64,000 bases of DNA, from the NCBI RefSeq assembly GCF_022758295.1, contig NZ_JALDWJ010000001.1, positions 682,001-746,000 on the forward strand, given 5' to 3'. The stretch comes from Lysobacter sp. CFH 32150 (lineage in GTDB: Bacteria; Pseudomonadota; Gammaproteobacteria; Xanthomonadales; Xanthomonadaceae). Below, piece after piece: positions 5,516-21,065 of the stretch. Numbering within the stretch: position 1 is the stretch's first letter; each line of letters opens with the position of its first letter. The position numbers and the translations under genes were made by a program. Under the pieces are notes generated by a model. The model did no database searches, was not told where the DNA came from, and was given only the letters and a program-made list of their open reading frames with translations.

Positions 5516-5549
5516 AAAAGAAAGCGGCCCGGTTTCCCCGGGCCGCTTT
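5516..5549 (-). terminator. rho-independent terminator after SLH subtilase
   Basis: A 9-bp GC stem (5524-5532 with 5538-5546), followed on the minus strand by TTTCTTTTT, lies 26 bases past the stop of the subtilase gene at 5575. Confidence 0.85.
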
Positions 5550-5574
5550 GCAAGCTTCCGTGCCTGGATGCGGC

Positions 5575-8088
5575 TTAGTCCTCGACGCTCTGGTAGCTGA
5601 CCTGGTAACGACCGGCGGCGACTGCGAAGGCGGCGCGGGTGACGGTCTTGTTGGGGTCGAAGTACGCGTGCAGGGTCGGGAACAGATCGAACGGTCCCTG
5701 AGTCACAGTAAAGCGCGCGTTGATCAGGCCGCGGTCCAGCGCCAGTTGCACGTAACCGCGCAGCGAGGCCGGGATCGAACCTGCATCATCGATCGGGAAG
5801 CGCTTGCCGTCGTAGAACACGGTCAGCTCGCCCGTGAAGGCCTGCGCTTCGTTCTGCAACGCCATGCTCTGCACCAGCGAGTACGCGAGGCTGACGCGGG
5901 TGACGTTGTCGTTCGGACGGAACGCGCCGTTGAGCTTGCCCATCACGCCGTTCTGGCCCTGCGTCAGGTCACGCAGCGCGCCGCCATTGGCCACTGCCGA
6001 TTCGGCATAGGCATAGCGTGAATCACCGGCGGCCAGGTCGCTGAAGCTCGAGCGGCCATTGAACGGCAGGTGCTGGCGCACGCTCTGCCCCATCAGCAGA
6101 TACTGCGCGAGTTCGCTGCGCTTGAGGTTCTGGTCGGGGCGGAAGTTGTCCGGATAGCCATCCACCAGACGATTGGCGACGGCGAACTCGATCGCCTGCC
6201 GAGCCGGGTGGTTGGCGATGTCGTTCAAGCCCGTGTAGCCGCCGCTGCGCAGGAAGCTGATCTCGCCATTGACGGTGCCCGGCAAGCCGTAGCCGTTGGT
6301 GACGTTGAGCGGATCGACATCGGCGCCGGACACCGAACCGATGCCGCGGACGCTGATCTTCCACACGCCAGGCTTGCCGGGGGCACCGGTGGTGACTGTG
6401 TCGCCAAGGACAGGCAACGCAATTGCGGAGCCGTACTTGATGCCGTCCGGATCGGTGAGCACCAGGGCCAGCGTGTTCTCGCCGATGGTCGCGCGTGCGG
6501 CAACCCAGGCGATGTCGTTACCGACGGTGAACTCTTCTTCCTCGACGGTGCCGACCGGGGCGAAATCGACCGAGAACGGACGGTTCGGCACGCCACCGAG
6601 CAGGATCGCATTGCTGTTGAACGTGCGCAGCGCGTTGACGGTGCCGCCCCAACCTGCGCGTGTGCCGGCCGCTTCGGCGACCGCCGCGTAGGCATTGATA
6701 TGGCCGTGTCCAGCTTCCCATGACAGGCGACCGGTCATGTTGGTGGCGGTGCGTTCGATGATGTTCTTGACCTGCGCCGGAGTGAGATGCGGATTGGCTT
6801 CCAGCATCAGCGCGACGATGCCGGCCACGTGCGGCGTCGCCATCGAGGTGCCGCTCATGTGGGTGTAGAACGGCAGGTACGCCGGCGCCAGGGTTTCGGC
6901 GTCGTGTTGCGCTTCGAGCGGCGGCAATACGCCGAGCAGGTCGCGCGTGGAGACGATGTCGACGCCAGTCGCGACGATGGTCGGCTTGTTGACGTAGGTC
7001 CACGACTTGCCGTCTGGCATGGTGAACGTGCCGGTCTCACCGCGCTTGCCGCGCGATGAGAAACTGGTGAGCACGCCATCCTTTTCGCCAGCGCCGACGG
7101 AGATCACCCACGGCGCCTGCGCATACGGGTTGTGCGTGTCTTCGCCCGGGCCATCGTTGCCGGCGGCGAACACGCTGACGATGCCGCGCTTGTACAACTC
7201 GTAGGTGGCGATGTTGACCGGGTTCATCGGATCGAACGGACCCGAGCTGCCCCAGGAGTTGCTGGTGACGCGGATCGCGCTGTCGAAACTGAACTGGTTG
7301 GTCGCGGCGTAATCGAGACCGCCGACCGCATCGAGCACGAGGATTACCGCGCCCGAACCGTAGCCGACCAGGTCCGCACCCGGCGCGACACCGCGGTACA
7401 GGCCATTGGAACGCTCACCGGTGCCGCCGATCGTACCGGCGCAGTGGGTGCCGTGGCCGGAGCCCAGGTCGGTGTTTGGCACGCCTTCGAGGTAAGTGAC
7501 CGGCACGATGCCCGGTGCGAACTCGGTGGCGAGTTCCGCCAGGATGTTCTGCGCACCGAGTACGTTCTGCACCACGTGTTCGCCGAGCTTGAGGTCTTCA
7601 TGCGTGGCGTCGACGCCGGAGTCGTTGACCAACACGGTTACGCCGGCACCGCTGAACGGAATCGCGCGGCCGTAATCACCCGGGTTCTGCACGGCACGTG
7701 CGGCGCCGGTGATTTCGCGTGCTTCCTTGTTGAAGTAACGCAGCGGGGCGTTGAAATAGATCGAGGCGACATCGTTGCGCAGTGCAAGCGCGCGGATTTC
7801 GGCCGGTGTCGCCAGTGCACCGGCGATCGGCAAGGTGCGCATGGTGACGCCCTTGGTGATGCCGAGCGCGTTCAGCGCAGCGATTTGGCCGGTGGTCACC
7901 GGGACGGATTGTTCGTAGCTGACGACGATCTGCAGTTCATCGGTCGGCAGCGCGCTCTCCATGCGCGACAACAGCTGCGGGTCGAGTTGGGCGTCGGCGA
8001 GGGCGACGCCGCTGGCGAACAGGCCGGCAGCAATAGCGCAGACCTTGAAGGTCCGATGCTTGGCGGGGGTAGATGCATGGAACAGCAT
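5575..8088 (-). CDS. secreted S8 subtilase with C-terminal SLH-like repeats
   Basis: 837 residues: signal peptide (1-32), an I9-like propeptide region (about 40-120), the subtilisin catalytic domain (about 145-480), a beta-rich P/jelly-roll-like domain (about 500-615), and three S-layer-homology-like repeats (from about 622; FRPDQNLKRSELAQYL, FRPNDNVTRVSLAYSLV, YFDPNKTVTRAAFA). The triad is visible: Asp156 in VNDSGVD, His212 in GHGTHCAG, Ser415 in GTSMATPH; the oxyanion Asn is N311. It should be an exported endopeptidase attached to or matured at the cell surface. It is paralogous to the products at 8308-9696 and 18454-20922 (the second SLH copy). The start is less certain: GGAG lies about 10 bases upstream of the ATG. 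The shared GTTTTCCCC-N20-ACGGAT element lies 73 bases before it. Confidence 0.93.
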   Translation of the reverse strand: MLFHASTPAKHRTFKVCAIAAGLFASGVALADAQLDPQLLSRMESALPTDELQIVVSYEQSVPVTTGQIAALNALGITKGVTMRTLPIAGALATPAEIRALALRNDVASIYFNAPLRYFNKEAREITGAARAVQNPGDYGRAIPFSGAGVTVLVNDSGVDATHEDLKLGEHVVQNVLGAQNILAELATEFAPGIVPVTYLEGVPNTDLGSGHGTHCAGTIGGTGERSNGLYRGVAPGADLVGYGSGAVILVLDAVGGLDYAATNQFSFDSAIRVTSNSWGSSGPFDPMNPVNIATYELYKRGIVSVFAAGNDGPGEDTHNPYAQAPWVISVGAGEKDGVLTSFSSRGKRGETGTFTMPDGKSWTYVNKPTIVATGVDIVSTRDLLGVLPPLEAQHDAETLAPAYLPFYTHMSGTSMATPHVAGIVALMLEANPHLTPAQVKNIIERTATNMTGRLSWEAGHGHINAYAAVAEAAGTRAGWGGTVNALRTFNSNAILLGGVPNRPFSVDFAPVGTVEEEEFTVGNDIAWVAARATIGENTLALVLTDPDGIKYGSAIALPVLGDTVTTGAPGKPGVWKISVRGIGSVSGADVDPLNVTNGYGLPGTVNGEISFLRSGGYTGLNDIANHPARQAIEFAVANRLVDGYPDNFRPDQNLKRSELAQYLLMGQSVRQHLPFNGRSSFSDLAAGDSRYAYAESAVANGGALRDLTQGQNGVMGKLNGAFRPNDNVTRVSLAYSLVQSMALQNEAQAFTGELTVFYDGKRFPIDDAGSIPASLRGYVQLALDRGLINARFTVTQGPFDLFPTLHAYFDPNKTVTRAAFAVAAGRYQVSYQSVED

Positions 8089-8161
8089 GGTGTGCGGTCT
8101 CCGAAGGACTCCTCCAAGATGAGGAGAGCCCGCAGTGTTCGTTACCGCAGCAACCGATCAC

Positions 8162-8197
8162 ATCCGTGGTTGCCTTCAACCGTATTGGGGGAAAACC
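8162..8197 (-). promoter_or_regulatory. conserved bipartite upstream element, copy 1
   Basis: On the minus strand GGTTTTCCCCC (8197-8187) is followed, with exactly 20 bases between GTTTTCCCC and the second box, by ACGGAT (8167-8162). TGAAGGCAAC (8178-8169) lies inside the spacer and is repeated in copy 2. It sits 73 bases before the ATG of the SLH subtilase. It could be a promoter for an alternative sigma factor or an operator pair. Confidence 0.6.
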
Positions 8198-8253
8198 ACC
8201 AGCGCGCCCGCTATACGACGTAAGCACAACGCTTCTTGGTCATCGCGTGCGCA

Positions 8254-8284
8254 AGAAAAAACGGCCCGGGGAAATCCGGGCCGT
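8254..8284 (-). terminator. rho-independent terminator after short subtilase
   Basis: Stem 8261-8269 with 8276-8284, followed on the minus strand by TTTTTTC, 23 bases past the stop at 8308. Confidence 0.85.
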
Positions 8285-8307
8285 GAAATCGTGCCAAGTG
8301 ATGTGCT

Positions 8308-9696
8308 CTACAAACCCTGCGCCACCTGCGCGGCTTCGTAGGCATCGACATGGCCACTGCCCACTTCGAACGGCTGTCGCCCCGCCATCGGATTGGCGGT
8401 GGATTGCAGTACTTGTTTCACCGCCAGCGGTGTCAGCCCGGGGTTGGCTTCGAACAACAGCGCGACGATGCCGGCAACGTGCGGCGTCGCCATCGAGGTA
8501 CCACTCATGTGCGTGTAGAACGCGGCTTGCGCGCCCAGCGAGAGATCCTGTGACACCGCCAGCAACGGCAGCGCACCGGTCAATGCGCGCGTGGACACGA
8601 TGTCGACGCCAGTGGCCACCAGGCTTGGCTGGTTGACGTAGGTCCACTGCACGCCATCACCCATGGTGAAGTTGCCGCTCTCGCCGATCTTGCCGCGCGA
8701 TGAGAAGTCGGCGAGCGTGCCGTCCTTGTTACCAGCGCCAACCGAGATCACCCATGGTGCCTGCGCGTAAGGGTTGTGGGTGTTTTCCGCCGGGCCATCG
8801 TTGCCGGCCGCGAACACGCTGACGATGCCCTTCTTGTATGCGGCGTAACTCGCGACGTTGACAGGATCGGTGGGATCGAACGCGCCGCTGGTGCCCCAGG
8901 AATTCGAGATCACCTTGATCGGCGCATTGAATGCATTCTGCTTGGCGATGGCGTAATCGAAGCCGCCGACTGCATCGAGGATCGAAATCACCGCGCCGGA
9001 ACCGTAGCCAACGATGTTCGCCCCCGTCGCGACGCCACGATGCTGACCGGCCGAACGCGCACCGCTGCCACCAACCGTGCCGGCGCAATGGGTGCCATGA
9101 CCGGAACTGATATCGGTATTGAGCTGGCCTTCGAGGTAGGTCACCGGCAGGAAAGTCAGCACAGAGGACAAATTGGTCAACGCCTGGACGTTCTCCACGA
9201 CGCGAACGCCAAACTTGAGATCCTCGTGGGTGGCATCGATGCCCGAATCGTTGACCATCACGGTCACGCCCTGACCGGTAAAGCCCAAGGCCGGATCGGC
9301 TTGCAGTTGGTCGACACCCGACAGCTGACGCGCGTCGGCGTTGTAGTACTCCAGGTCACGATTGAGATGGATCGCGGCGACATCGTCGCGCTGTGCCAGT
9401 GCGCGGATTTCGGCGGGGGTCGCAAAAGCACCAGCGATCGGCAACACGCGCATCGCGATGCCCTTGTCGATGCCAAGCGCTTTCAATGCGGCGATCTGGC
9501 CCGTGCTGACCGGATTGGCCTGGTCGTAGGTCACCACGATCTGCAGTTGCTCGAACGGCAACGCGGTAACCAGCTTCGAGACGAGGCGCGGATCGAGCTG
9601 GGCATCGGCAAGCGCCACGCCGCTGGCTAGCAAGCCGGCAGCGAGTGCGCAGATTCGGAACGTTTTGGTGGGTGGGCAGGGATGCGAATGCGGCAT
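8308..9696 (-). CDS. secreted S8 subtilase, short form without SLH repeats
   Basis: 462 residues, closely related to the other two subtilases here but ending right after the catalytic domain (QVAQGL), with no P-like or SLH part. Signal peptide up to about residue 31 (ALAAGLLASGVALADA), then an I9-like propeptide. The triad is Asp150 (VNDSGID), His200 (GHGTHCAG) and Ser401 (GTSMATPH). Without a surface anchor it is probably released to the medium or periplasm. AAGGAG lies six bases before the ATG. The gene has its own element (9780-9815) and its own terminator, so it is an independent transcription unit. Confidence 0.92.
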   Translation of the reverse strand: MPHSHPCPPTKTFRICALAAGLLASGVALADAQLDPRLVSKLVTALPFEQLQIVVTYDQANPVSTGQIAALKALGIDKGIAMRVLPIAGAFATPAEIRALAQRDDVAAIHLNRDLEYYNADARQLSGVDQLQADPALGFTGQGVTVMVNDSGIDATHEDLKFGVRVVENVQALTNLSSVLTFLPVTYLEGQLNTDISSGHGTHCAGTVGGSGARSAGQHRGVATGANIVGYGSGAVISILDAVGGFDYAIAKQNAFNAPIKVISNSWGTSGAFDPTDPVNVASYAAYKKGIVSVFAAGNDGPAENTHNPYAQAPWVISVGAGNKDGTLADFSSRGKIGESGNFTMGDGVQWTYVNQPSLVATGVDIVSTRALTGALPLLAVSQDLSLGAQAAFYTHMSGTSMATPHVAGIVALLFEANPGLTPLAVKQVLQSTANPMAGRQPFEVGSGHVDAYEAAQVAQGL

Positions 9697-9779
9697 GTCG
9701 AGCTCCTTGATGATCTGGCTCCGGGTCGCCCCAGGATGGGTGCGCAGCGCATTCAGCTCTCAGGGGACCCGCGATGTTG

Positions 9780-9815
9780 ATCCGGCGTTGCCTTCACGGC
9801 GAACGGGGGAAAACC
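9780..9815 (-). promoter_or_regulatory. conserved bipartite upstream element, copy 2
   Basis: Minus-strand GGTTTTCCCCC (9815-9805), a 20-base gap after GTTTTCCCC, then CCGGAT (9785-9780). TGAAGGCAAC at 9796-9787 is in the same phase as in copy 1. It lies 83 bases before the short subtilase ATG, inside the divergent region shared with the plus-strand gene at 9963. Confidence 0.6.
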
Positions 9816-9962
9816 CTCACCGACGCGCTCGGAGCGACGTTCTGCGACACAACCCTCATCACGCTGCTGAACACAAGGCAGCGCTGGGTGAAACTACCTA
9901 CAGACGCCGGGTTGGAATCGCGATTAGTCTTCGCGCTTCGTGGCCGCGGTTGTGGAGCAAGC

Positions 9963-10802
9963 ATGGTGAAGTTCGCCCTGGCGTCGAAGGCCTTGTTCGC
10001 CGCCATGCTTTTCGTCTGCACAGGGATCGCCGCAGCACAATCACTACCGGTCACCGTGGAAGCATCGGGCAACCATGCCCATGCCTCGATCACCATCGAT
10101 GGGACCGAGGTCGCAGAACTCATCCTCGACTTCCAGGACGCCAGCGGCCTGAGCGCAACCAGTCTCGGCGTGAGCGCCGAAGTGGTCAGTCCGCTCGACA
10201 GTTCGCTGTTGGCGCGCCTGCCCGACACCAGCCTGACCACACTCACCACCGGCCTGCCGGTGATGATCACGGTCGAACCGCCCGCCAACGGCGGCCTGAG
10301 CTTCCGCGACGTCGGCCGGCTTGAAATCCACACCCATGCCCTGCCCTACACGCTCGGCAGTTCGCTGCGTGTGTTCAAGGCTCCGCTGGGCGGTAATTTC
10401 CGCGACGTCACCGATGAGATCGCCGAAGGCAGCGTCCGAGCACGCAGCACTTATGGCGGCTTTTCGCAGTTCCTGATCCTCACCGATGTCCGCACCACTG
10501 GCGCGGTCATCAACGAGAAAATCGGCTGGCTGCGCGACAAGGTGTCGACCCTCCCGTTTAGCGAACGTGGCGCGTTCGACGCCAAGCTCGATGAGGTCCA
10601 GAACGCCGTCGCGCTGGGCAATTACACTGCCGCACTTGCCGCCGTCGACGCCTTCCGCGGCCGTGCGCAAGCCCGTGCCGGGCAATTCATCGCCAATGAA
10701 TGGCGTGCCACCCGCGACGTCGACAACCAGGCCGGCAATTTGGTCGCTGGTGCGGCGACCTTGCGCTTCAGCGTCGCGTACTTGCGCGATTTCGGGCAGT
10801 AG
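9963..10802 (+). CDS. secreted protein of unknown function, paralogue A
   Basis: I do not recognise the family. The start at ATG 9963 gives 279 residues with a signal peptide ending near CTGIAAAQS, the same length as the paralogue at 11583. An upstream in-frame extension to 9774 looks non-coding. Shared blocks: SLPVxV near the N terminus, VEPPxxGGLSFR, LRVFKAPLxGxFRD, GSVRARSxYGGFSQFL, and a C-terminal block around TRDVxNxAG ending AYLRDxGQ. The first 180 residues look beta-rich; the last 90 look helical. It diverges from a subtilase gene, so a role linked to secreted proteolysis (substrate, inhibitor or partner) is possible but not shown. Confidence 0.8.
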   Translation: MVKFALASKALFAAMLFVCTGIAAAQSLPVTVEASGNHAHASITIDGTEVAELILDFQDASGLSATSLGVSAEVVSPLDSSLLARLPDTSLTTLTTGLPVMITVEPPANGGLSFRDVGRLEIHTHALPYTLGSSLRVFKAPLGGNFRDVTDEIAEGSVRARSTYGGFSQFLILTDVRTTGAVINEKIGWLRDKVSTLPFSERGAFDAKLDEVQNAVALGNYTAALAAVDAFRGRAQARAGQFIANEWRATRDVDNQAGNLVAGAATLRFSVAYLRDFGQ

Positions 10803-10803
10803 T

Positions 10804-10833
10804 AGACCCGGGCCTGCCAATGCAGGTCCGGTC
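10804..10833. terminator. convergent terminator-like hairpin
   Basis: Stem 10810-10817 with 10822-10829 (one G-T pair), no T-tract, in the 29-base gap between two convergent genes. It probably ends or insulates both. Confidence 0.4.
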
Positions 10834-11290
10834 AGGGCGACGCCAGCAACAGGCCGACACGTGCGGATTGTTTCAGCGCGTAGGTCTCGCCAACCGCACC
10901 CGCCAGCAGTTCGTGGTACGACGGCAACAAGCCGCACAGCTGTTCGCGTGACTCGCAAGCCCGCATCCGCAGGGTGAACAGATAACTGTTCATGCCGGGC
11001 GCGACGGTCGCCACCTCCGCCATCAACGTGCGCGCCAATTGTTCCGACGTCACACCCTCGGGCACGAGGCCGTCGCGCTGGTTGAATTCGATCAGGCCCA
11101 GTTGATGCAGCTCGTCGAGCACCTGGTCGGCGTCGATGATGTCGTTGAAGCGCTGGCGCAACTCCCGCACGGTGAGGTCACCGAAGATTGCAATCAGCAT
11201 CGCCCGAGCGCGACAGGAAAGCGGCTGTTCGTGCCGAGTGACCTCGCGCATCCCGGCGGCGGTCTTCACCGGTATCGCATCGCTGCGCAT
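10832..11290 (-). CDS. small protein with winged-helix-like segment
   Basis: 152 residues from ATG 11290, chosen because AAGGAG lies seven bases upstream; ATG 11296 is too close to it. The central part (SCRARAMLIAIFGDLTVRE, then RQRFNDIIDADQVLDELHQLGLI) looks like a small winged-helix domain, with hydrophobic helices and a short wing before GLVPEG. The C terminus is helical. There is no signal peptide, so it is probably cytoplasmic. It lies on the opposite strand between the two paralogous secreted-protein genes, so a regulatory role is conceivable. Function unknown. Confidence 0.65.
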   Translation of the reverse strand: MRSDAIPVKTAAGMREVTRHEQPLSCRARAMLIAIFGDLTVRELRQRFNDIIDADQVLDELHQLGLIEFNQRDGLVPEGVTSEQLARTLMAEVATVAPGMNSYLFTLRMRACESREQLCGLLPSYHELLAGAVGETYALKQSARVGLLLASP

Positions 11291-11420
11291 CGCCATTCTC
11301 CTTGGCTGCTTACGGCATAAACAGCGTTGCCCGATAGCGATGTTTCGTCGACGCGGGAAAGTCCCCATGCGGCCCAGGTGAAGTCCCCCAGGGGGCATGG
11401 GACCGCGCGAGGGATTTCTG

Positions 11421-11449
11421 TTGACAAACCAGGGGAAAACGCCTAGAGA
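11421..11449 (+). promoter_or_regulatory. sigma70-type promoter for paralogue B
   Basis: TTGACA at 11421-11426, 17-base spacer, TAGAGA at 11444-11449. The spacer contains GGGGAAAAC, the reverse complement of the GTTTTCCCC box, 143 bases before the ATG of the gene at 11583. A similar box lies about 150 bases before the paralogue at 9963. Confidence 0.45.
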
Positions 11450-11582
11450 TTCGACCTGCGTCACGGTTTGGGTTCGTCCTGCCAGTCTTGCCGTACAAGT
11501 AGTGCTGCTTCTGTTCACAGGTGACCCAAGTCGCCAAGCCTCGAGACCGCCCTGCAAGCGGTGACGAGGCACAGGGGGTGGT

Positions 11583-12422
11583 ATGAAGAAGCTCACGCGC
11601 TGTGCGTTCCGCATCTGGAGCGCGCTGGTTCTGTCGACGGCCATGACCTTGGCCCATGCCCAGTCTTTGCCCGTCGAGGTCAAGGTCGCGGGTAATACGG
11701 CTACCGCACGCGTCGGCCTTCCACTGGTCGGCACCTTGGCCGACGTGACGCTGACGTTCGATCAGGTCAGCGGCTTGACCCCTTCGAGTGTGGGGATCAG
11801 CGCTCAACTGGTCAGCCTCACCGACCCGCTACTGCGCGGCCGCCTGCCCAGCTTGACCCAGATCACCTCGACGCTGCCGTTGCTGATCACCGTCGAGCCG
11901 CCATCTGCGGGTGGACTCAGCTTCCGTCGCAGCGGCCGCTACGAACTGCACACCATCCTGCTGCCTTATAGCGTCGGCAGCCACCTGCGGGTGTTCAAGG
12001 CGCCACTCGACGGCAAGTTCCGCGACATCACCGAAGAGATCGCTTCCGGCAGCGTACGAGCGCGTAGCCGTTACGGCGGTTTCTCGCAATTCCTGGTGCT
12101 GGTCGACCTGCGTGCGACCGGGACGGTCGTCGCCGAGAAGATCAGCTATTTGCGTACCCGCATCGCCAGGTTGCCGGCCAGCGAACAGCCGGCGTTCACC
12201 ACCCTGCTCAATGCCGCCGAGTCCGCCATTGCCAGCGGCAACTATGCCAATGCGATTGTGGCGATCGACTCGATCACCGCCCGTGCCACCGCTCGGGCCG
12301 GCACCTATATCCCCGATGTGTGGCGGTCGACCCGCGACGTCGAGAACCATGCCGGCGAACTGATCGCCGGCGCCGCGACGCTCAAGTTCAGCGTCGCCTA
12401 CTTGCGCGATTACGGGCAATAA
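11583..12422 (+). CDS. secreted protein of unknown function, paralogue B
   Basis: 279 residues, clear duplicate of the product at 9963-10802. Signal peptide up to about AHAQS. It keeps all shared blocks: VEPPSAGGLSFRRSG, LRVFKAPLDGKFRDI, GSVRARSRYGGFSQFL, STRDVENHAGELIAGAATL and the final YLRDYGQ. No catalytic or metal-binding pattern is evident. It has its own promoter-like sequence about 140 bases upstream and precedes the signalling operon that starts at 12569. Confidence 0.8.
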   Translation: MKKLTRCAFRIWSALVLSTAMTLAHAQSLPVEVKVAGNTATARVGLPLVGTLADVTLTFDQVSGLTPSSVGISAQLVSLTDPLLRGRLPSLTQITSTLPLLITVEPPSAGGLSFRRSGRYELHTILLPYSVGSHLRVFKAPLDGKFRDITEEIASGSVRARSRYGGFSQFLVLVDLRATGTVVAEKISYLRTRIARLPASEQPAFTTLLNAAESAIASGNYANAIVAIDSITARATARAGTYIPDVWRSTRDVENHAGELIAGAATLKFSVAYLRDYGQ

Positions 12423-12464
12423 GGCGCGACGATCCGATCGCCCATGCTGCCGCGTCGGCGCTAC

Positions 12465-12492
12465 GGCCAAGCCTGTTCAAGCGGGCTTGGCC
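12465..12492 (+). terminator. hairpin between paralogue B and FHA-GAF gene
   Basis: Perfect 9-bp stem GGCCAAGCC / GGCTTGGCC with a 10-base loop and no T-run; a weak terminator or transcript-end hairpin. Confidence 0.4.
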
Positions 12493-12568
12493 GGCTCGCA
12501 CCTGCACGGCAGCCTGCTGGAAGAGAGCGCCCATCATTCGCCCAGCCACCCCGCGCTAAGATGGCCCG

Positions 12569-13456
12569 ATGCAACAGGCGCGTCTGATTGCCTATCCACC
12601 TGATAGCGGCGCCGCCATCATCCGATCGCTGGCGCCTGACGACCTTTTGCGTATCGGTAGGGCCAGCGATTGCGATCTGGTCCTCGAGCATGCCTCGGTG
12701 TCCCGTACCCATGCCGAACTGCGCGGCGAGCCCGGGGGGTGGCGCCTGCGCGACCTCGGCAGCAAGAACGGCAGTTTCATCGACGGCCACCCGATCAGCG
12801 AAGCCATGCTGGACCGGACCTGCTGGCTGCGCTTCGGCGACGTGCATTGCGAATTCGCGGTCCTGGATGCGGTGCAGGCTGCGGCGCTCAGCGCTCGCCA
12901 GCAATCGCGCCATGCGCAGTCGCAGGCGCTGATCAGGCGCATTGACCGCCAGGCACCTTTCGGTGCGCTGCTCGACGACATCCTGCGCGGCGTGCTCGAG
13001 CTGGCCGGCTGCAGCCGCGGCTTCCTGTTGATGGCCCGCGGCGACGATTACGTGGTGTGCGCGAGCAGGACCATCGATCCCAGTGCCTTGAACACCCGCA
13101 ACTTCTCCGGCAGCGTCGGTGCCGTGCAGCGGGCGCTGACCCAGCGCAAACCGGTCGTGGTCAACCAGATGGACAGCGAGCCCTGGCTGGCTGGCCGCGC
13201 CTCGGTCATCGGCTTGGGTTTGCAATGCCTGGTGTGCCTGCCGCTGCTGGATGGCGAGCGCGTGCTTGGCGCGGTGTATGCGGACCGCAGCGAACCCGGC
13301 GAACCGATCACCCAACTCGATGTGGAACTGCTGAGCGCCTTTGCCGAAAGCGCCGCGGTATGGATGCTGGCCGGACAGGCGATCGAGGTTTTGAATAACG
13401 CACCGCGCTGGAAGACGATCGTCTCCGCACACACTCGCGAAGGACACATCGCGTGA
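12569..13456 (+). CDS. FHA-GAF domain signalling protein
   Basis: 295 residues. The N-terminal FHA domain (about 25-95) has its canonical pThr-binding motifs: RIGRASDCDLVL, SRTHAEL and LRDLGSKNGSFIDG. A GAF-like domain follows (about 130-275; GCSRGFLLMARGDDYV, LQCLVCLPLLDGERVLGAVYADR). No output domain. FHA domains bind phosphothreonine, so the likely partner is the Ser/Thr kinase encoded next, whose GTG start overlaps this stop (GTGA). First gene of a four-gene block (12569-18216). No membrane segment, so cytoplasmic. The GAF ligand is unknown. Confidence 0.9.
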   Translation: MQQARLIAYPPDSGAAIIRSLAPDDLLRIGRASDCDLVLEHASVSRTHAELRGEPGGWRLRDLGSKNGSFIDGHPISEAMLDRTCWLRFGDVHCEFAVLDAVQAAALSARQQSRHAQSQALIRRIDRQAPFGALLDDILRGVLELAGCSRGFLLMARGDDYVVCASRTIDPSALNTRNFSGSVGAVQRALTQRKPVVVNQMDSEPWLAGRASVIGLGLQCLVCLPLLDGERVLGAVYADRSEPGEPITQLDVELLSAFAESAAVWMLAGQAIEVLNNAPRWKTIVSAHTREGHIA

Positions 13457-16400
13457 GCGAGGCACTACCGCCAGCCGCTACCGCCACCGGCTTGTACGCC
13501 CATGCCGACTTTGCCGTCGGCGCGGTCCTGGCCGGGCGCTTTCGTATCGAAGCCATGCTCGGCGTCGGTGGCATGGGCGTGGTCTATCGCGCCACGGATC
13601 TCGCGCTGGAAGTGCCGGTGGCGCTGAAGTTGCTGCGCCCGGAACTGGCCTCCCGCAGCGGTGCCTTCGAACGCTTCCGCCAGGAGCTGCTGCTGGCGCG
13701 GCAGGTGTCGAACCCGCACGTGGTGCGCATCCACGATCTCGCCCAGCACGAAGACCGCTGGCTGATCAGCATGGACTTCGTCGATGGCGAATCACTCGAT
13801 CGACGCATCGACCGCGATGGTCCCTTCGCTATCGAGGACGCGCTGCGCATCACCCGCCAGCTCGCCGAGGGCCTCGCCGCCGCACACGCCAAGGGCGTGG
13901 TCCATCGCGACATGAAACCGGCGAACGTCCTGCTCGACGGGCAGGGCAATGCCTACATCAGCGATTTCGGTATCGCACGCTCGCTCGCGAGCACCGGCCT
14001 GACCCAATCCGGCACCGTCGTCGGCACGCCGGAGTACCTGTCGCCGGAACAGGCGCGCGGCGACACGGTGGATGCGCGCAGCGACCTGTATGCGTTGGGA
14101 TTGATCCTGTACGAGATGCTGGCGGGCAAGCCGCCATTCTCCGGTGGCACCGTCGCCGAGATCCTCGCGCAACGGTTGGTACGCACGCCGGAACCGCTGT
14201 CGAAGCATCGCAGCGATGTACCCGCATGGGTGTCACGACTGGTCGACAAGCTGCTGCGGCCGCAACCAGCGCACAGATTCCGCGACGCCGCGGCGGTGAT
14301 CGCGGCGATCGACAAACGCGAAGTCGCGCGCGAGTTCCGTCCAGGTCTGTGGATCGGCGCCGCGGCCGTGCTCGCGCTCGCTGTAGCACTCGGCGCTTGG
14401 TGGATGCAGCGTGAGCAACCCTCTGCTGCAATTGCTGCGGTATCGCCGCCGCTGCAGCGACTGCTGGTTCTGCCGATCGTGCAAACCGACGCTGGCGACC
14501 GCGCGTTGGCGTCACAGCTGGCCGGCGCCGGCGCACATCTGCGGGATGCGCTGGCGGCGATCCCGGGATTCGCAGTCGTCGATGGGGAACGCACCGCACA
14601 AGCGCTGCGCCAACTCGATCCCACCGGCACGGCGCCGCCCGATATCGGCGCCTTGCGCACGGTCGCCGCCGCACAACGTGTATTGCAACCGCAACTGCTC
14701 GCCGAGAACGGTCGCTGGCGATTGCGGGCCGAATTGCACAGCGATGCGCAAACGCCGCAGCTGATCGAAGGCCCGGTCGCGGCTGATCCACTCGCGGCCT
14801 TGCGCGCGTGGACCACGCAAGCGCACACCGCGAATGCGCTGGGCCTGAAGAAGGCCACGATCGAAGTGCACCTGCCCGCGCAACCGAAAGCACTTGATGC
14901 CTACGGCAACGGCATGCTTGCCTGGCAACACGGCCGACTCGCGGATGCCGCCACGCAGTTGCGCTCGGCCACCCAGGTCGCACCGGATTACACCGCGGCG
15001 TGGTTGGCGCAGGCGCAGATCGCGCTGGCGATTGGCGACCAGGACGCGGCCTTCACCGCACTCGACCAAGGCCAGTCCTCCGTTGCAAAGGCAACACAAC
15101 GCCTCCAGCGCCAGTTCAGCGCCGAGCGCGCCCTGCTCGAAGGCGATCCGCCGGCTGCGGTCGCGGCTTGGCGCGCCATGCTGGCGACAACGCCGGACGA
15201 CACCTGGGCCGAACTCAACCTTGCGCGCGCGCTAGGCGCGGGAGGCGACTTCAAGGCCGCGGTCGCCAGCCTGCAGAAATTGTCGATGCGTGACGCGCAG
15301 GACCCGCGTACCTGGTTCGAGCTTGGCAAGTTCTCCATCCTCAGCGGCGCCTCGCGGCGTGCCGTCGACGACTACCTGGTGCGCGCACTGGTCCTGTACA
15401 AACGCAGCGGCAACCGCTTCGGCGAAGGCGAGACCATCAATGCGCTCGGCATCGGCTACAACCGCCTCGGCCAGACCGCCGATGCCATCGAGCAATACCG
15501 CAAGGCGGTGGAGTTGCGGCGCGCGGTCGGCAATCGTCGTGGCGAAGCGACCAGCCTGCGCAACCTCGGCAACCTGCTGACCCAGGCCAGCAAATTCGAC
15601 GAAGCCGCAACCGTCCTTGCGCAGGCGCGCGCACTGCATGCCGAGCTCGACGATCGCGCCGGCCTGGCCGCGGTCGAGAACGAGTTGGGCCTGCTCGCCG
15701 AGGAGCGCGGCGATTACCGCGGCGCATTGGCGGCATTCCGGCGCGCGTTGCAGGCCTGGCAGCAGCTGGACGACCCGCTCGGCAAGGCGCAGGCGCTCAA
15801 CGACATCGGCTTTGCCCACTATCAGCTTGGTGCCTACGACGACGCGCAGGTGTATCTGCAGCAGGCCGCCAATGGTTATGCCGAGATCGGTGACCTGACC
15901 GGTCGTATTCGTGCCGATCAAGGCCTCGGCCTGCTCGCGATCGCGCGTGGGCACTGGCACGATGCGCGCCGACTCCTGCAGCAATCGCTGGCGAACGCCG
16001 AACAGCAGCAGATGCTGGAGGAAGTTGCGGTCAGCCGTCGCCATCTCGCCGAACTGGAGTTGCTGCAGGGTCATTTCGGCGCCGCGCTCGAACAAGCAGG
16101 CAAAGCCGAAGCGTTGTTCAAGCAGCGCGATGATGCGCGCGGCCAGGCCGACGCCACATTGCTGCGAGTCCAGGCGCTGCTGGCGATGCATGCCGACGCC
16201 GATGCCGCACGCATGCTCGATGCAGCGGCACCGACGCTGGCTCAGGCCTCCGGCGAACAACGCGCAATCGCCGCCAGCCTGCGCGCGCAGTTGGCGCAAG
16301 GCCGCGGCGACGCGGCCGTTGCACGATCGCAGCTCGCAGAAGCCGCACGCCTGGCGGCGGCCTCGGGGGTCAAGGCACTGCAATTGCAGGTTGCCTTGCA

Positions 16401-16764
16401 AGGTCCGGATGCCGGCACGCTCGATGCAGACACCAGCGCACTCGGTCATGCCGCGCTGCGCCTGCGCTGGCTGGAAATGGCGATGGTGAACGCGATGGCG
16501 CGTGGTGATCCGGCTGCCGCCGTGAGCGCATATCGCGACGCGCAGGCGCGCCTGCGCGCAGGTGATTTCCAGCGCGCGGCGCAACTGCATGCACTGGGCG
16601 CGCGTGCGCTGACCGCTGCCGGCGACCCGGCTGGTGCCGCCACCGCAGGGGCTGCCGCAGCCCGCGCCTGGGAACAATTGCGCGCGCAGATTCCCGGCGA
16701 GCAGCGCGCTGGATTTGATGCTGCGACCAGAATCGCGGGCATTGCGATGGAGCCGCCATCATGA
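13453..16764 (+). CDS. membrane Ser/Thr protein kinase with TPR sensor region
   Basis: 1103 residues from a GTG start. Hanks-type kinase domain (about 30-290): glycine loop GVGGMGVVY (37-45), Lys59 in VALKLL, HRDMKPAN with catalytic Asp153, DFG at 171-173 and GTPEYLSPEQ. One transmembrane helix (about 299-318) places the rest (320-1103) outside the cytoplasm. That part has a segment resembling the nucleoside-independent alpha/beta domain of such kinases (RLLVLPIVQTDAG), then many TPR units (GIGYNRLGQTADAIEQYRKAVEL is typical) to about residue 1000. The kinase is followed by a histidine kinase and a response regulator, so Ser/Thr and His/Asp phosphorylation may be linked. It probably phosphorylates the FHA-GAF protein (inference). 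Confidence 0.92.
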   Translation: MSEALPPAATATGLYAHADFAVGAVLAGRFRIEAMLGVGGMGVVYRATDLALEVPVALKLLRPELASRSGAFERFRQELLLARQVSNPHVVRIHDLAQHEDRWLISMDFVDGESLDRRIDRDGPFAIEDALRITRQLAEGLAAAHAKGVVHRDMKPANVLLDGQGNAYISDFGIARSLASTGLTQSGTVVGTPEYLSPEQARGDTVDARSDLYALGLILYEMLAGKPPFSGGTVAEILAQRLVRTPEPLSKHRSDVPAWVSRLVDKLLRPQPAHRFRDAAAVIAAIDKREVAREFRPGLWIGAAAVLALAVALGAWWMQREQPSAAIAAVSPPLQRLLVLPIVQTDAGDRALASQLAGAGAHLRDALAAIPGFAVVDGERTAQALRQLDPTGTAPPDIGALRTVAAAQRVLQPQLLAENGRWRLRAELHSDAQTPQLIEGPVAADPLAALRAWTTQAHTANALGLKKATIEVHLPAQPKALDAYGNGMLAWQHGRLADAATQLRSATQVAPDYTAAWLAQAQIALAIGDQDAAFTALDQGQSSVAKATQRLQRQFSAERALLEGDPPAAVAAWRAMLATTPDDTWAELNLARALGAGGDFKAAVASLQKLSMRDAQDPRTWFELGKFSILSGASRRAVDDYLVRALVLYKRSGNRFGEGETINALGIGYNRLGQTADAIEQYRKAVELRRAVGNRRGEATSLRNLGNLLTQASKFDEAATVLAQARALHAELDDRAGLAAVENELGLLAEERGDYRGALAAFRRALQAWQQLDDPLGKAQALNDIGFAHYQLGAYDDAQVYLQQAANGYAEIGDLTGRIRADQGLGLLAIARGHWHDARRLLQQSLANAEQQQMLEEVAVSRRHLAELELLQGHFGAALEQAGKAEALFKQRDDARGQADATLLRVQALLAMHADADAARMLDAAAPTLAQASGEQRAIAASLRAQLAQGRGDAAVARSQLAEAARLAAASGVKALQLQVALQGPDAGTLDADTSALGHAALRLRWLEMAMVNAMARGDPAAAVSAYRDAQARLRAGDFQRAAQLHALGARALTAAGDPAGAATAGAAAARAWEQLRAQIPGEQRAGFDAATRIAGIAMEPPS

Positions 16765-17513
16765 GCGACATCCCAAGCGGGCGGGATCATGATCAACGCG
16801 ATGACTTGCTCCCTGCCCTGCGTGAGCAGTACGAACGCCTGCTGCAACGACTGGAAGCCAACGAACGCGAATTCCGCCGACTCGGCCGGGCAGTATGGCG
16901 AGTGCAGGAGGACGAGCAGCGCCGCCTCGCGCGCGAACTGCATGACGGGATCGGCCAGAACCTGACGGCGCTCAAGCATCGCCTCGTGCAGCTCCAGCTC
17001 GGCTTCGGTGTGACGCCGGAACAACGCACGCAACTCGATGCGGCGATTGCGCTGTGCAGCGACACCCTCACCGATACCCGTGAGCTGTCGCGTCTACTGC
17101 GTCCGCAGGTCCTCGACGACCTGGGCTTGGGCCCCGCCCTGCAATGGCTGGCACGCAGCCAGCGCGAATCCAGCGGCATGGAAGTCACCGTCGAGATCGA
17201 TGCGCTGCCGCCACTGGACGGCGATGTGCAGACCCTGCTGTTCCGCGTCGCCCAGGAGGCCCTTAACAACGCCGCCAAGCACGCCGATGCGCGCAGTGTG
17301 TTGCTGCGATTGGTCGCCCGCAGCGGGCTGCTGCAATTGCAGGTGGTCGACGATGGCCGCGGCTGCGATCCCGATGCAGCCTTGCGCTCCGGTGGCAGCG
17401 GTCTCGGCGGCATGCGCGAACGGTTGCGCTTGTACGACGGGCGGCTCGAAATCCATTCCGCGCCCGGCGCAGGCACGCGCCTGCGCGCCGTCGTGCCGCT
17501 GATCGACGCGTGA
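16761..17513 (+). CDS. soluble NarX/DegS-type histidine kinase
   Basis: 250 residues, start overlapping the kinase stop (ATGA). An N-terminal coiled-coil-like helix (about 12-55) is followed by a HisKA_3 dimerisation box with His61 in LARELHDGIGQNL, then an HATPase domain: N box EALNNAAKHAD, G boxes DDGRGCDPD and GGSGLGGMRERL. No membrane segment and no sensor domain, so input must come from a partner, most simply the TPR-bearing Ser/Thr kinase upstream. The cognate regulator is the NarL-type protein encoded 50 bases downstream. Confidence 0.92.
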   Translation: MSDIPSGRDHDQRDDLLPALREQYERLLQRLEANEREFRRLGRAVWRVQEDEQRRLARELHDGIGQNLTALKHRLVQLQLGFGVTPEQRTQLDAAIALCSDTLTDTRELSRLLRPQVLDDLGLGPALQWLARSQRESSGMEVTVEIDALPPLDGDVQTLLFRVAQEALNNAAKHADARSVLLRLVARSGLLQLQVVDDGRGCDPDAALRSGGSGLGGMRERLRLYDGRLEIHSAPGAGTRLRAVVPLIDA

Positions 17514-17565
17514 CCGGTACGCCGCCGACTTGACGGCGACCGGGGCACGCGCGCAACTTGCCGGC

Positions 17566-18216
17566 ATGGGGATCGGCATCATCCGTGTACTACTCGCAGA
17601 CGACCACACGCTGGTCCGCGAAAGCCTGGTCGGCCTATTGCAGGCCGATAGCAGCGTGCAGGTCGTGGCGCAGGCCGCCGATGGCCTGGAAGCGGTGACC
17701 AAGGCGATCGCCACACGCCCCGACATCGTCGTCGCAGATATCTCGATGCCACGGCTCAACGGGCTCGAAGTGGTCCGGCGGCTACGCGAAGCACTGCCCG
17801 AGACCAAGGTGCTGATGCTGACCATGCACCAGGAAGACGAATACGTGCTGCAGGCGGTGCGTGCCGGTGCTTCCGGTTACCTGGTCAAGGACAGCGCCGC
17901 ATCGGAACTGCTTGCCGCCGTGCACAGCCTGCAGGCCGGGCGCGGCTACTTCGGACCCCAAGCTTCAAGGGCCCTGGCTGAGCAGTTGCAGCATCCTGAA
18001 CGTGTGGTCGACGACCCTTATGGCCGCCTGACCACACGCGAACGCGAAGTGTTCCACCTGATCGTGGAAGGCCTGACCACCAAGGAAATCGCACGCAGGC
18101 TCGAGATCAGTGCCAAGACCGCGGAGAACCACCGCGCCCGCGTGCTCGACAAGCTCGATGTGCGAAACACCGCCGAGCTGGTGCGTTACGCCCTGCGCAA
18201 GGGCTTGCTGGACTGA
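17566..18216 (+). CDS. NarL/LuxR-family response regulator
   Basis: 216 residues from ATG 17566; a TTG 12 codons upstream is possible, and neither start has a good Shine-Dalgarno. The receiver has the acidic pair Asp12/Asp13, phospho-acceptor Asp58 (VVADISMP) and the conserved Lys in YLVKD. The C-terminal LuxR HTH is complete (LTTREREVFHLIVEG, TTKEIARRLEISAKTAENHRARVLDKL). It should act as a DNA-binding dimer after phosphorylation by the adjacent histidine kinase. Its most obvious nearby target is the downstream SLH subtilase promoter, which carries two 14-bp direct repeats one 21-base period apart (18310-18344). Confidence 0.92.
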   Translation: MGIGIIRVLLADDHTLVRESLVGLLQADSSVQVVAQAADGLEAVTKAIATRPDIVVADISMPRLNGLEVVRRLREALPETKVLMLTMHQEDEYVLQAVRAGASGYLVKDSAASELLAAVHSLQAGRGYFGPQASRALAEQLQHPERVVDDPYGRLTTREREVFHLIVEGLTTKEIARRLEISAKTAENHRARVLDKLDVRNTAELVRYALRKGLLD

Positions 18217-18309
18217 TCGCATCGGCTGCATCAGCAGCTGCAGCACAAGGACGACGTGCCGCTGAAGTCGATTGCCATTCCGCGGCACGATTTGCCATGC
18301 CGATCACTG

Positions 18310-18344
18310 TTACGCCGTATACGCGGGTCATTACGCCGTACACG
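18310..18344 (+). repeat. direct repeats, possible activator site
   Basis: TTACGCCGTATACG (18310-18323) and TTACGCCGTACACG (18331-18344) differ at one base and are spaced 21 bases apart, two helical turns. They lie directly before the GTTTTCCCC box of the subtilase gene at 18454. A related TTACGTCGTATA lies upstream of GTTTTCCCC before the 5575-8088 gene (minus strand, near 8221-8210). Confidence 0.55.
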
Positions 18345-18347
18345 AGT

Positions 18348-18382
18348 GTTTTCCCCAACTTGCGCTGGGGACTGTTCCGGAT
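18348..18382 (+). promoter_or_regulatory. conserved bipartite upstream element, copy 3
   Basis: GTTTTCCCC (18348-18356), exactly 20 bases, then CCGGAT (18377-18382), ending 71 bases before the ATG of the third subtilase. Apart from the leading G and fifth C of the longer box, layout and distance match copies 1 and 2. Confidence 0.6.
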
Positions 18383-18453
18383 GTGGCACAGGGCAGCGCA
18401 CTCCATGCTGCTGCGGCGCTCAGCGCTCCTGTCACATTCACGAGGGTTCTTCC

Positions 18454-20922
18454 ATGTCGTTTGTTCCCCGTACGCTGCGGGCGAGCCTGCTCGCCGCCGC
18501 CATCCTGGCCACTCCGTTGCTCGCCGAGGCGCGCCGCCTCGATCTGCAACTGGAGCGCGTGCTGCCCACACTGGCCGCCAACGAGCCTGTCGAGGTCATC
18601 ATCAGCTTCAACGGCGACGGACCGCTGACCACAGAACAGACCCAGCGCCTCAATGCACTCGGCATCAAGGGCCTCAACATGCGCGCGTTGCCGATCGCCG
18701 GCGCGCTGGCCACTCCGGCGCAGGTGCAATCGCTGCTGGCGATGCCGGACGTGCGCTCGATCTGGCTGAACGCACCGCTGGAGTACGACAACAAGGAAGC
18801 CACCCAGATCACCGGCGTCGATCGCCTGCGCACCGACAGCAGCCTGCGCAATGCCGCGGGCTTGCCGTACACCGGCAAGGGCATCGGTGTCGTGGTGAAT
18901 GATTCCGGCATCGACGGCACCCACTCCGACCTGCAATACCCCGCACACGTCGTCCAGAACGTCGCGGCGCAGACCAATTTGTATGCGCTCGATTCACAAC
19001 TGCCGATCACCTACATCGAAGGCGTCGCCAACACCGACCTCGGCGGCGGTCATGGCACCCACTGCGCCGGCATCATCGGCGGCACCGGTGCGGCCTCGCC
19101 GGGCGGCGACTTCGAAGGCGTGGCGCCGGGCGCGAGCATCATCGGCTATGGCTCGGGCGCTGCGCTGTTCGTGCTCGATACGATCGGTGGTTTCGATTAC
19201 GCGCTCACGCACCAGGCGCAGTACAACATCCGCGTCATTTCCAACTCGTTCGGCAACACTGGCGACGTCGGCACCGAGTTCGACCCGGACGATCCGACCA
19301 ACATCGCGACCAAGAAGCTGTCCGACCGTGGCGTGGTGGTGGTGTTCTCGGCCGGTAATTCCGGTCCGGGCGAAGCCACGATCACCGGCAACTTCAAGAA
19401 GGCACCGTGGGTGATCGCGGTCGCCGCGGGCGACAAGGGCGGCGAGCTCGCCGGCTTCTCCTCGCGCGGCGAGAACGGCAAGGGCGGCACGGTGACGGTC
19501 GACGGCGAGCAATACAGCTGGGCCGATCGCCCGACGGTGACGTCCCCCGGCGTCGATATCGTTTCGACCCGCGCTTCGCTCGGCACGATCGACAAGCTGG
19601 CCGCGGAACAGGACATCAACGTCCTCGGTCCCGCGCTTGCCGCGCGCTACACGCACATGAGTGGTACCTCGATGGCGGCGCCACACGTGGCCGGCATCGT
19701 CGCACTGATGCTGGAAGCCAACCCCCGCATGAGCTGGCGCGAGGTGAAACAGATCCTGCAACAGACCGCCACCAACATCCCCGGCAACGAAGCCTGGGAA
19801 GCCGGCGCGGGTTACGTCAACGCCCACGACGCAGTGAAGGCGGCGCTCGGTGCTACTGGTTTCGGCAGCACGCTCAATAGCAACCGGACCTTCAACGCCA
19901 GCGCCAACGTCTCTACCGGCAACAGCACCGACTATCCGATCGAATTCAGCCCGGTCGGTCCGACCGGTTCGCAACAGTTCGAGGTCGGCGCCGATATCTC
20001 GCTGGTCAACGCCCGCGCCAACATCGGCGACAACACGCTGGCGATCTCGCTGACGGATCCGAACGGCAAGCGCTATGGCTCCTCGGTCGGCTTGCCGGTG
20101 CTCGGCTCGAACGTCGCGGTTTCCGCGCCGGGCGTGGCGGGCACATGGACGGTGACCGTACGCGGCGTCGGTTCGGTCTCGGGCGTCGCCCTCGATCCAG
20201 CGAAGGTCACCAACGGTTACGGCGTGCCGGCTACGGTCAACGTCAATGTCAAGCAAGTGCGCACCGATGGTTACAGCGGTTTGAACGACATCGCCGGCCA
20301 CGCGGCACGCGGCTTCATCGAGTTCGGTGTGGCCAATCGCCTGGTCGACAGCTACAGCGATGGCAACTTCCGCCCTGACCAGGTGCTGACTCGCGGCGAG
20401 CTCGCGCAGTACCTGGTGATGGGCGCGGGCGCACGGCAGTTCCAGCCGAGCAACGCCGTATCGAGCTTTACCGATTTGTACCCCAGCGATCCGCTGGCCC
20501 CGTTCGCGGAAGCGGTGGCGGCCAAAGGTGCGGCGCTGCGCAATCGCGAACAGCGGCAAGCCGGCATGATGGGCAAGCTCAACGGCGCATTCCGCGCGGG
20601 CGATTCGGTGACGCGCGTGAGCATGGCCTATTCGCTGGTGCAGGCACTGGCTCTACAGGACCAGGCGGCTGGCTTCAGCGGCACGCTGACGGTGTTGTCC
20701 GATGGCAAGCGCATTCCGATCGAAGACGCGACCACCATTCCAGCCAGCCTGCAGGGTTATGTGCAGCTGGCACTGGACCTGGGCCTGATCAATGCACGCT
20801 TCGCCCTGGCGCAGGGGCCGTTCGATCTGCAGCCGACGTTGAAGGCCTACTTCGACCCCGCCCAACTCGTCACCCGCGGCGCCTACGCCGCCGCGGCCAG
20901 CCGTTGGCTCGGCGTGTACTGA
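18454..20922 (+). CDS. secreted S8 subtilase with SLH-like repeats, second copy
   Basis: 822 residues from ATG 18454, with GAGGG seven bases upstream; an in-frame extension to 18256 has no signal peptide. Signal peptide about 1-26, then propeptide, then the catalytic domain with Asp150 (VNDSGID), His200 (GHGTHCAG) and Ser406 (GTSMAAPH). A beta-rich domain (about 500-600) precedes three SLH-like repeats (FRPDQVLTRGELAQYL, FRAGDSVTRVSMAYSLV, YFDPAQLVTRGAYAAAA). Same architecture as the product at 5575-8088, 10 kb away on the other strand. It follows the kinase/regulator operon directly, suggesting control by it. The SLH-like repeats suggest surface attachment. Confidence 0.93.
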   Translation: MSFVPRTLRASLLAAAILATPLLAEARRLDLQLERVLPTLAANEPVEVIISFNGDGPLTTEQTQRLNALGIKGLNMRALPIAGALATPAQVQSLLAMPDVRSIWLNAPLEYDNKEATQITGVDRLRTDSSLRNAAGLPYTGKGIGVVVNDSGIDGTHSDLQYPAHVVQNVAAQTNLYALDSQLPITYIEGVANTDLGGGHGTHCAGIIGGTGAASPGGDFEGVAPGASIIGYGSGAALFVLDTIGGFDYALTHQAQYNIRVISNSFGNTGDVGTEFDPDDPTNIATKKLSDRGVVVVFSAGNSGPGEATITGNFKKAPWVIAVAAGDKGGELAGFSSRGENGKGGTVTVDGEQYSWADRPTVTSPGVDIVSTRASLGTIDKLAAEQDINVLGPALAARYTHMSGTSMAAPHVAGIVALMLEANPRMSWREVKQILQQTATNIPGNEAWEAGAGYVNAHDAVKAALGATGFGSTLNSNRTFNASANVSTGNSTDYPIEFSPVGPTGSQQFEVGADISLVNARANIGDNTLAISLTDPNGKRYGSSVGLPVLGSNVAVSAPGVAGTWTVTVRGVGSVSGVALDPAKVTNGYGVPATVNVNVKQVRTDGYSGLNDIAGHAARGFIEFGVANRLVDSYSDGNFRPDQVLTRGELAQYLVMGAGARQFQPSNAVSSFTDLYPSDPLAPFAEAVAAKGAALRNREQRQAGMMGKLNGAFRAGDSVTRVSMAYSLVQALALQDQAAGFSGTLTVLSDGKRIPIEDATTIPASLQGYVQLALDLGLINARFALAQGPFDLQPTLKAYFDPAQLVTRGAYAAAASRWLGVY

Positions 20923-20975
20923 CCGTAAGCAAGCGTTGTCTCGCGCTGACCGTCACCCCCGATCAGTGCAACCCC

Positions 20976-21012
20976 GAAGCCCGTCGTTCCCTGCGGCGGG
21001 CTTCACCTCTTT
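20976..21012 (+). terminator. terminator after third subtilase
   Basis: 11-base arms 20976-20986 and 20994-21004 (GAAGCCCGTCG / CGGCGGGCTTC, one mismatch), followed by a weak T-rich end, 54 bases past the subtilase stop. Nearly identical to the hairpin at 21161-21190. Confidence 0.65.
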
Positions 21013-21024
21013 GCGCGCGTGGGT

Positions 21025-21059: not shown

Positions 21060-21065
21060 AGCACC

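Follow-up and report, generated by a model that had tools for sequence, protein, structure and literature searches.

A conserved DUF6689, FHA-GAF, Ser/Thr kinase and two-component gene module, a probable regulator of secreted subtilases in Lysobacter sp. CFH 32150

The window, a stretch of 64,000 nucleotides from Lysobacter sp. CFH 32150 (contig NZ_JALDWJ010000001.1, positions 682,001 to 746,000; G000:C7:682001-746000), carries a cluster of genes for secreted subtilases (S1, S2, S3) and secreted DUF6689 proteins (DufA, DufB) around those for a cytoplasmic FHA-GAF protein (F), a Hanks-type Ser/Thr kinase (K), a histidine kinase (H) and a response regulator (R). With D for a DUF6689 gene and S for a subtilase gene, D-F-K-H-R is likely a conserved, self-activating transmembrane module, the output of which would be subtilase secretion. 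The genes of the cluster are as follows.

5575..8088, minus strand: S1, secreted subtilase with SLH domain (Peptidase_S8 E 6e-44, SLH E 4e-16; signal peptide by eye)
8308..9696, minus strand: S2, secreted subtilase without SLH domain (Peptidase_S8 E 9e-43)
9963..10802, plus strand: DufA, secreted DUF6689 protein (PF20396 E 1.3e-111, 372.7 bits)
10832..11296, minus strand: small frame of 154 amino acids between DufA and DufB, without Pfam family above cut-off
11583..12422, plus strand: DufB, secreted DUF6689 protein (PF20396 E 1.2e-104, 349.8 bits)
12569..13456, plus strand: F, cytoplasmic FHA-GAF protein (FHA 1.5e-17, GAF 1.3e-14)
13453..16764, plus strand: K, Hanks-type Ser/Thr kinase with TPR outside (Pkinase 2e-50, 172 bits; TPR by Pfam; one membrane span by eye)
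16761..17513, plus strand: H, histidine kinase without sensor domain (HisKA_3 and HATPase_c by Pfam)
17530..18216, plus strand: R, NarL-type response regulator (Response_reg 6e-29, GerE 4e-19)
18454..20922, plus strand: S3, secreted subtilase with SLH domain (Peptidase_S8 4e-42, SLH 1e-10)

All three subtilases match Peptidase_S8 above its cut-off and carry the Asp-His-Ser motifs of subtilases, DSG, GHGTHCAG and GTSMATPHVAG (GTSMAAPHVAG in S3); pairwise identity is 50–63%. DufA and DufB are 56% identical, both exceeding the PF20396 gathering cut-off of 27. A preliminary description of this DNA had listed three paralogous secreted subtilases, two paralogous unknown secreted proteins, FHA-GAF, a TPR-bearing membrane kinase, a sensorless histidine kinase and a NarL regulator, with genes overlapping or nearly so. 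Pfam places every one of these where it had been read, the two unknown proteins being DUF6689. The reading frames of F and K overlap (K start 13453, F end 13456), as do those of K and H (H start 16761, K end 16764); the gap between H and R is 16 bp. The DufA open reading frame (ORF) opens at 9774, the start at 9963 being chosen from signal peptide and promoter. The S3 ORF opens at 18256, its signal peptide (by eye) suggesting a real start at about 18454; the R frame opens at 17530, with the true start possibly downstream. The small frame at 10832–11296, perhaps an insertion splitting duplicated D genes, gave no tblastn match (1e-4) against other loci longer than 6 kb. No known RNA element reaches its gathering threshold within 5000–22000 of the window.

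Of 119 genomes of the same family, the own genome among them, 29 carry DUF6689; they span 21 of the 54 genera, and none of 14 control genomes has it. Up to 20 kb around DUF6689 was taken from the 28 other family genomes, giving 29 loci, and searched with the window proteins. Within the Lysobacteraceae the order S<D>F>K> is kept in 26/29 DUF6689 loci and is continued by H>R> in 24/26, the other two stopping at a contig edge; L064 and L065 have D>F>K>H>R> without a subtilase. A profile scan for F gives 30 matches in the 119 genomes, namely all 29 D genomes and G025. With S1 as query (E<=1e-60), 27 genomes match, 26 of them D genomes and the other G022, a fragmented genome with an unlinked subtilase of the same clade though no cluster was found; G013, a D genome missed by this query, has its subtilase cut at a contig end. 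The neighbours, taken in the preliminary description to belong together, thus do not separate freely: order is kept and the genes co-occur genome by genome, with Fisher values of 8e-22 (D-S) and 7e-27 (D-F) over the 119 genomes, kinship ignored.

Beyond the family D is rare, 3/369 in a class draw and 3/398 in a phylum draw, the same three each time: the own genome, G482 and G463. G463, of another gammaproteobacterial family, has the set complete but rearranged as S>D>F>K>H>R>S<, at identities to the window of 45–53% (S), 23% (F) and 28% (K); boxes of the kind described below precede both its subtilases (p 0.020, 0.002). In G025 (L165:9432-10241; L078 is the same locus) no gene of the module but F was found; it adjoins genes for LEA_2 and acyl-CoA dehydrogenase and is apparently what a natural deletion left. 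G073 has, besides the block, a second, solitary DUF6689 gene with partners absent (L056:9262-10329).

An inverted repeat, approximately TRGGKGAAAWCNCCYA and hereafter the box, is common to 33/33 S-D intergenic regions and 14/14 unlinked subtilases of the clade. In the window it was scored with a matrix built from 28 distinct sites, none of them from the window. The boxes of the cluster are as follows.

8186..8201, plus strand: box upstream of S1 (TGGGGGAAAACCACCA), matrix score 19.1
9804..9819, plus strand: box in the S2/DufA divergent region, score 19.4, top of the 64 kb
9885..9900, plus strand: second box in the S2/DufA region, score 18.2
11375..11390, plus strand: weak box upstream of DufB, score 12.6
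11430..11445, plus strand: box upstream of DufB (CAGGGGAAAACGCCTA), score 15.1
18343..18358, minus strand: box upstream of S3, score 12.4, with p 0.016 from permuted matrices for the S3 upstream region

The four best matrix sites of the window (9804, 8186, 9885 and 11430; scores 19.4 to 15.1) are all intergenic in the cluster. Box 9885–9900 directly precedes a putative -35 (CAGACG, 9901–9906) and -10 (TAGTCT, 9925–9930) of DufA. Since a 64-kb Markov sequence yields about 2.6 sites scoring >=10, the single weak boxes at 11375 and 18343 count in their own upstream regions only. The 9-mer GTTTTCCCC has 5 copies in the 64 kb, each intergenic within the cluster (expected 0.34; 0/100 shuffles gave 5), and 15 in the whole genome vs 6 for the reversed control. 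Upstream elements common to the subtilases, as proposed earlier, are therefore real, but not limited to subtilases: the box is found before both DUF6689 genes as well.

De novo search of the relatives' S-D regions together with the window regions returns the inverted repeat TGGGGGAAAaCCCCcA, often with CTACAGAC after it. With window sequences and named copies left out, the same motif is obtained at a likelihood ratio of 255 vs 60–71 for five shuffled sets; these were started from 80 seeds rather than 120. The named copies are L066, L067 and L075, of L043, L055 and L058, excluded from motif control, kinase counts and S-D box test alike. All 33 S-D regions have a box scoring >=12, each at permuted-matrix p <=0.007, most having served as training sites; the six outside training (L042, L046, L048, L057, L058, L072) score 17.0–25.5. 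A chance origin of the repeat is ruled out by the shuffles, the de novo control and the S-D region test. Immediately after the box, NNGAC is present in 19/33 S-D regions, followed 16–19 bp on by TAnnnT in 19/19 (no chance control); the two are plausible -35 and -10 elements of the D operon, and a box adjoining -35 would suit an activator. Regions upstream of F (2/32 at p<0.05) and of H (1/30) have boxes no more often than chance, as expected if one operon runs from the D promoter.

The box is also found in trans. Unlinked subtilases of the same clade in 14 genomes have it in 14/14 cases, at -55 to -100, with scores of 11.3–20.7 and p <=0.010 each (400 bp upstream of the gene, permuted matrices; none of these genes in training; the G022:C84 subtilase, a gene without start, omitted). 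Aligned on the box, these promoters average 1.26 bits in box columns vs 0.43 in flanks, a contrast that is partly circular because the matrix itself picked the box; a second G-rich/C-rich repeat recurs about 24 bp beyond it (by eye). Subtilases at the S3 place or otherwise second in the cluster have a box in 6/9 cases at p<=0.016. Own-genome subtilases that do not belong to the clade (L163, L178) lack a box scoring >=11 in the stretch fetched.

The pattern RGGKGAAAWCNCYYA has 59 sites in the 119 genomes. In the 30 system-bearing genomes (G022 included) 17/30 sites belong to the cluster or stand upstream of an unlinked subtilase on the list. One of the 17 is that of L051, before an S8 protein that occupies the S3 place and has a MAM match below threshold. 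The remaining 13 sites amount to 0.43 per genome vs 0.33 in the genomes without the system (29 sites in 89 genomes); one of the 13 (L230) lies about 120 bp before an unlinked S8+PA gene. Off-target density being near that of system-free genomes, the box travels with the cluster. Taken together, the operator evidence supports a regulator that moves with the cluster and controls the subtilases.

Single sites outside the cluster were noted as well. L228:2469 (G014) is a perfect box, AGGGGAAAACCCCTA, directly upstream of an ECF sigma factor gene (PF07638). At L170:4329 (G000:C8:38329) the start of a gene of crotonase type, presumed to resemble RpfF, the diffusible-signal synthase, overlaps with a box-like core, near frames taken to be a hybrid kinase and HD-GYP; this site could tie the regulon to quorum sensing, or could be chance. 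L173:4157 (G000:C10) is a box-like site between genes for an EamA-like transporter and a receiver/histidine kinase hybrid (labels by eye).

Proteins of the module were aligned with relatives: F in alignment A1 (window and 22/28 relatives), DUF6689 in A2 (two window rows and 24/29 D loci), K in A3 (window and 24/36 kinases). Several rows have overlong N-termini, their ORF starts being mechanical. R31, S45, H48 and N67 of F are invariant in the 23 rows of A1 and are taken to be phosphothreonine-binding residues. K is of the Hanks type, with HRDMKPAN and SDFG; as a PASTA kinase (Stk1/PknB) it falls short, NCBIfam NF033483 reaching 294 bits vs a cut-off of 450 over the kinase part only. Its N-terminal tail has TxT in 34/36 and TxTG in 31/36 kinases (counted by eye; the L044 kinase N-terminus unreadable in the TxT count). 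Because it is kept in an otherwise variable tail, TxTG is a candidate site of autophosphorylation and FHA docking. In the AlphaFold2 model of the K ectodomain (pLDDT 93.4) a small alpha/beta domain is joined to a long TPR superhelix, stretches of which are almost as conserved as the kinase domain. The outer TPR domain of the preliminary description is thereby upheld; nothing points to the peptide or peptidoglycan ligand suggested for it. H and R have the HisKA_3, HATPase_c, receiver and GerE domains of a NarL/HisKA_3 pair, and the H-box of H and the helix-turn-helix of R are conserved across relatives; the NCBIfam matches shown for both are below their cut-offs.

DufB is modelled at pLDDT 92.6, and the model is taken for its paralogue DufA too. 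The N-terminal sandwich is weakly similar to ZU5, GAIN and FIIND domains (VIA Z 6.1, 6.0 and 5.2, Z <8 being weak; best Foldseek E 0.017), and the C-terminal part resembles a piece of a GH92 enzyme (Z 7.7, 90 residues, 1.8 Å). Self-cleaving ZU5/GAIN members have His two residues before the scissile Ser/Thr. In DUF6689 an FS pair is invariant and the position two before Ser is G, A or S in 26/26 rows of A2, equivalence to the scissile site being judged by eye; without His before Ser, canonical self-cleavage is not expected. The predicted N-terminal domain is thus weakly like that of ankyrin, CD97 and NLRP1, and DUF6689 differs from these in being secreted and bacterial, with a helical C-terminal part and no such His.

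Four loci (L064, L065, L076, L166) are without a clade subtilase in the stretch examined. In L065 and L076 the gene divergent from D encodes a secreted protein of one common family (P0008, P0009; similarity by eye), and a secreted FG-GAP_2 protein gene lies near R. Boxes scoring >=14 precede all four secreted-protein genes; those adjoining D were training sites, those before the FG-GAP_2 genes were not. With these genes behind the box, the constant part of the system seems to be D-F-K-H-R and box; judged from gene content, the secreted output seems to vary, with a subtilase in most. The family in the subtilase place beside D (L065:10439-12217, L076:7601-8815) is without Pfam match and has repeats around EFSVELEDLPAGTY. 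Control of the subtilases by the regulator, as proposed in the preliminary description, gains operator evidence for a cluster-borne regulator and is not universal, given the four loci above.

In the module reading K would lie in the inner membrane, where its outer alpha/beta and TPR domain would meet a periplasmic signal and switch the inner Ser/Thr kinase. K would autophosphorylate, probably at the N-terminal TxTG, and the FHA domain of F would bind there; F would relay through its GAF domain to the sensorless H, and H would phosphorylate R. R would bind the inverted repeats (half-sites approximately TRGGKG/CMCCYA) beside the -35 region and would activate, rather than repress, the operon D-F-K-H-R together with the subtilase genes, both the divergent one and those unlinked to the cluster. 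Comparison of relatives establishes which genes make up the set, their order and co-occurrence, the box with its place and the conserved motifs. The best-supported step is that R, switched by H, activates module and subtilases via the box. Ranked next is that K reads an outside signal and autophosphorylates, with F docking by FHA and relaying to H; K, F and H would then form one pathway in the order K-F-H-R, and a ligand of some nature would be presumed for K. Any part played by D, whether as substrate, as inhibitor or as ligand, is the least supported. An extension of the scheme, improbable at present, is a closed protease-sensing circuit: subtilases would cut the ZU5/GAIN-like DUF6689, or else something guarded by it, the TPR superhelix of K would read the product or the freed protein, and FHA-GAF, H and R would signal back to the box.

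Several observations weigh against the module reading. The module stands without an S1-type subtilase at E 1e-15 in family genomes G039 and G109 (the latter a draft, 94% complete), and also in G482, which is of the same order and has D>F>K>H>R>. Second-place subtilases of L043 and L044 have no box, that of L059 is marginal (p 0.068), and the solitary D of L056 has none. A strong matrix site at 8777 (14.6, fifth best), probably chance, falls within S2 coding. Fifty Markov sequences of window length peaked at 18.1, and the window sites alone are therefore insufficient to decide on the box. The Fisher values for co-occurrence overstate significance because related genomes are not independent.

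Among the rival explanations, that H and R alone control box and subtilases, with K and F a separate Ser/Thr pathway in the same operon, is unlikely and survives best. HisKA_3 kinases and NarL regulators usually act as pairs. In a simple motif test F-H fusion was absent among 66 distant FHA-GAF frames, so gene fusion gives no support for F-H coupling, a further point against the module reading. Against a self-sufficient pair, H of the window is without a sensor domain and therefore probably in need of a partner, and every DUF6689-module locus with H and R also has F and K alongside.

Less probable still is that the box is bound by another regulator, for example a global one, R acting on other genes. 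Binding of R to the box is inferred, which also counts against the module reading, and the box core in the own genome that overlaps the start of the presumed diffusible-signal synthase gene would suit a wider regulator. The off-target density near that of system-free genomes speaks for a dedicated binder; the inverted repeat fits a dimeric LuxR/NarL-type protein, and among the conserved proteins D-F-K-H-R no DNA-binding protein other than R was seen.

A plain inherited neighbourhood of functionally unconnected genes, for which the LEA_2 and acyl-CoA dehydrogenase genes that often follow the block in relatives (LEA_2 without conserved box) might speak, is largely excluded by patchy presence (21/54 genera; 7/20 genomes of one genus) with D, F and S mostly either all there or all missing, by the set complete yet rearranged in another family, and by unlinked subtilases behind the same box.

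Neighbouring genes in the window were considered too. The LEA_2 lipoprotein gene was rejected as a regulon member: the copy before it at 21020 (9-mer at 21026; p 0.012 within that region) is not conserved, upstream regions of LEA_2 in relatives giving 1/20 at p<0.05 and three more at exactly 0.05. Directly downstream of S1 (1749–5306, minus strand) are two adjacent secreted proteins of 602 and 582 amino acids, mutually related by eye, with YD-repeat-like wording and without Pfam match.

No description of DUF6689 or of this gene composition was found in the open-licence literature, outside which most subscription journals lie; judged from its genes, the system may be a Ser/Thr kinase/two-component hybrid in a previously undescribed composition. 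EspA-type hybrid kinases have kinase, FHA and receiver in one chain. F is separate from the kinase chain and does not belong to them, the EspA model matching its FHA part weakly (E 2.3e-6, 25.9 bits vs the NF052573 cut-off of 1400). Like UhpB/UhpA and NarX/NarL, H and R combine a HisKA_3 kinase with a NarL-type regulator; unlike in these, no membrane or sensor domain was found in H. The nearest precedent, in the part of the source available, is EspA of Myxococcus xanthus, a histidine kinase acting together with Ser/Thr kinases (partners PktA5 and EspB; PMC4320627). EspA is a hybrid kinase concerned there with MrpC turnover, whereas here H has neither receiver nor sensor, FHA and GAF stand in a protein of their own (F), and the genes proposed to be transcribed as output are those of secreted subtilases. 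Ser/Thr kinases also converge with two-component regulators in PknH-DosR and Staphylococcus VraR, where the kinases phosphorylate the response regulators (PMC4601284, as far as its available part goes). The kinases of this sort are described in that review as few and pleiotropic; here one conserved operon would have its own operator and secreted effectors.

Three signalling languages, a Hanks-type kinase, a phosphothreonine reader and a two-component pair, would thus meet in a single conserved operon, its operator readable and its output defined. Cross-talk between Ser/Thr kinases and two-component systems is more familiar where the partners are pleiotropic (PMC4601284, available part). Target genes can be predicted from the box in many genomes, which opens the order of signalling and the range of effectors to direct testing. 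DUF6689 gains a genomic context, and the modules with other secreted proteins suggest that effectors are exchanged while the sensor stays constant. If the protease-sensing circuit were true, the cell would gauge its own extracellular proteolysis and adjust it.

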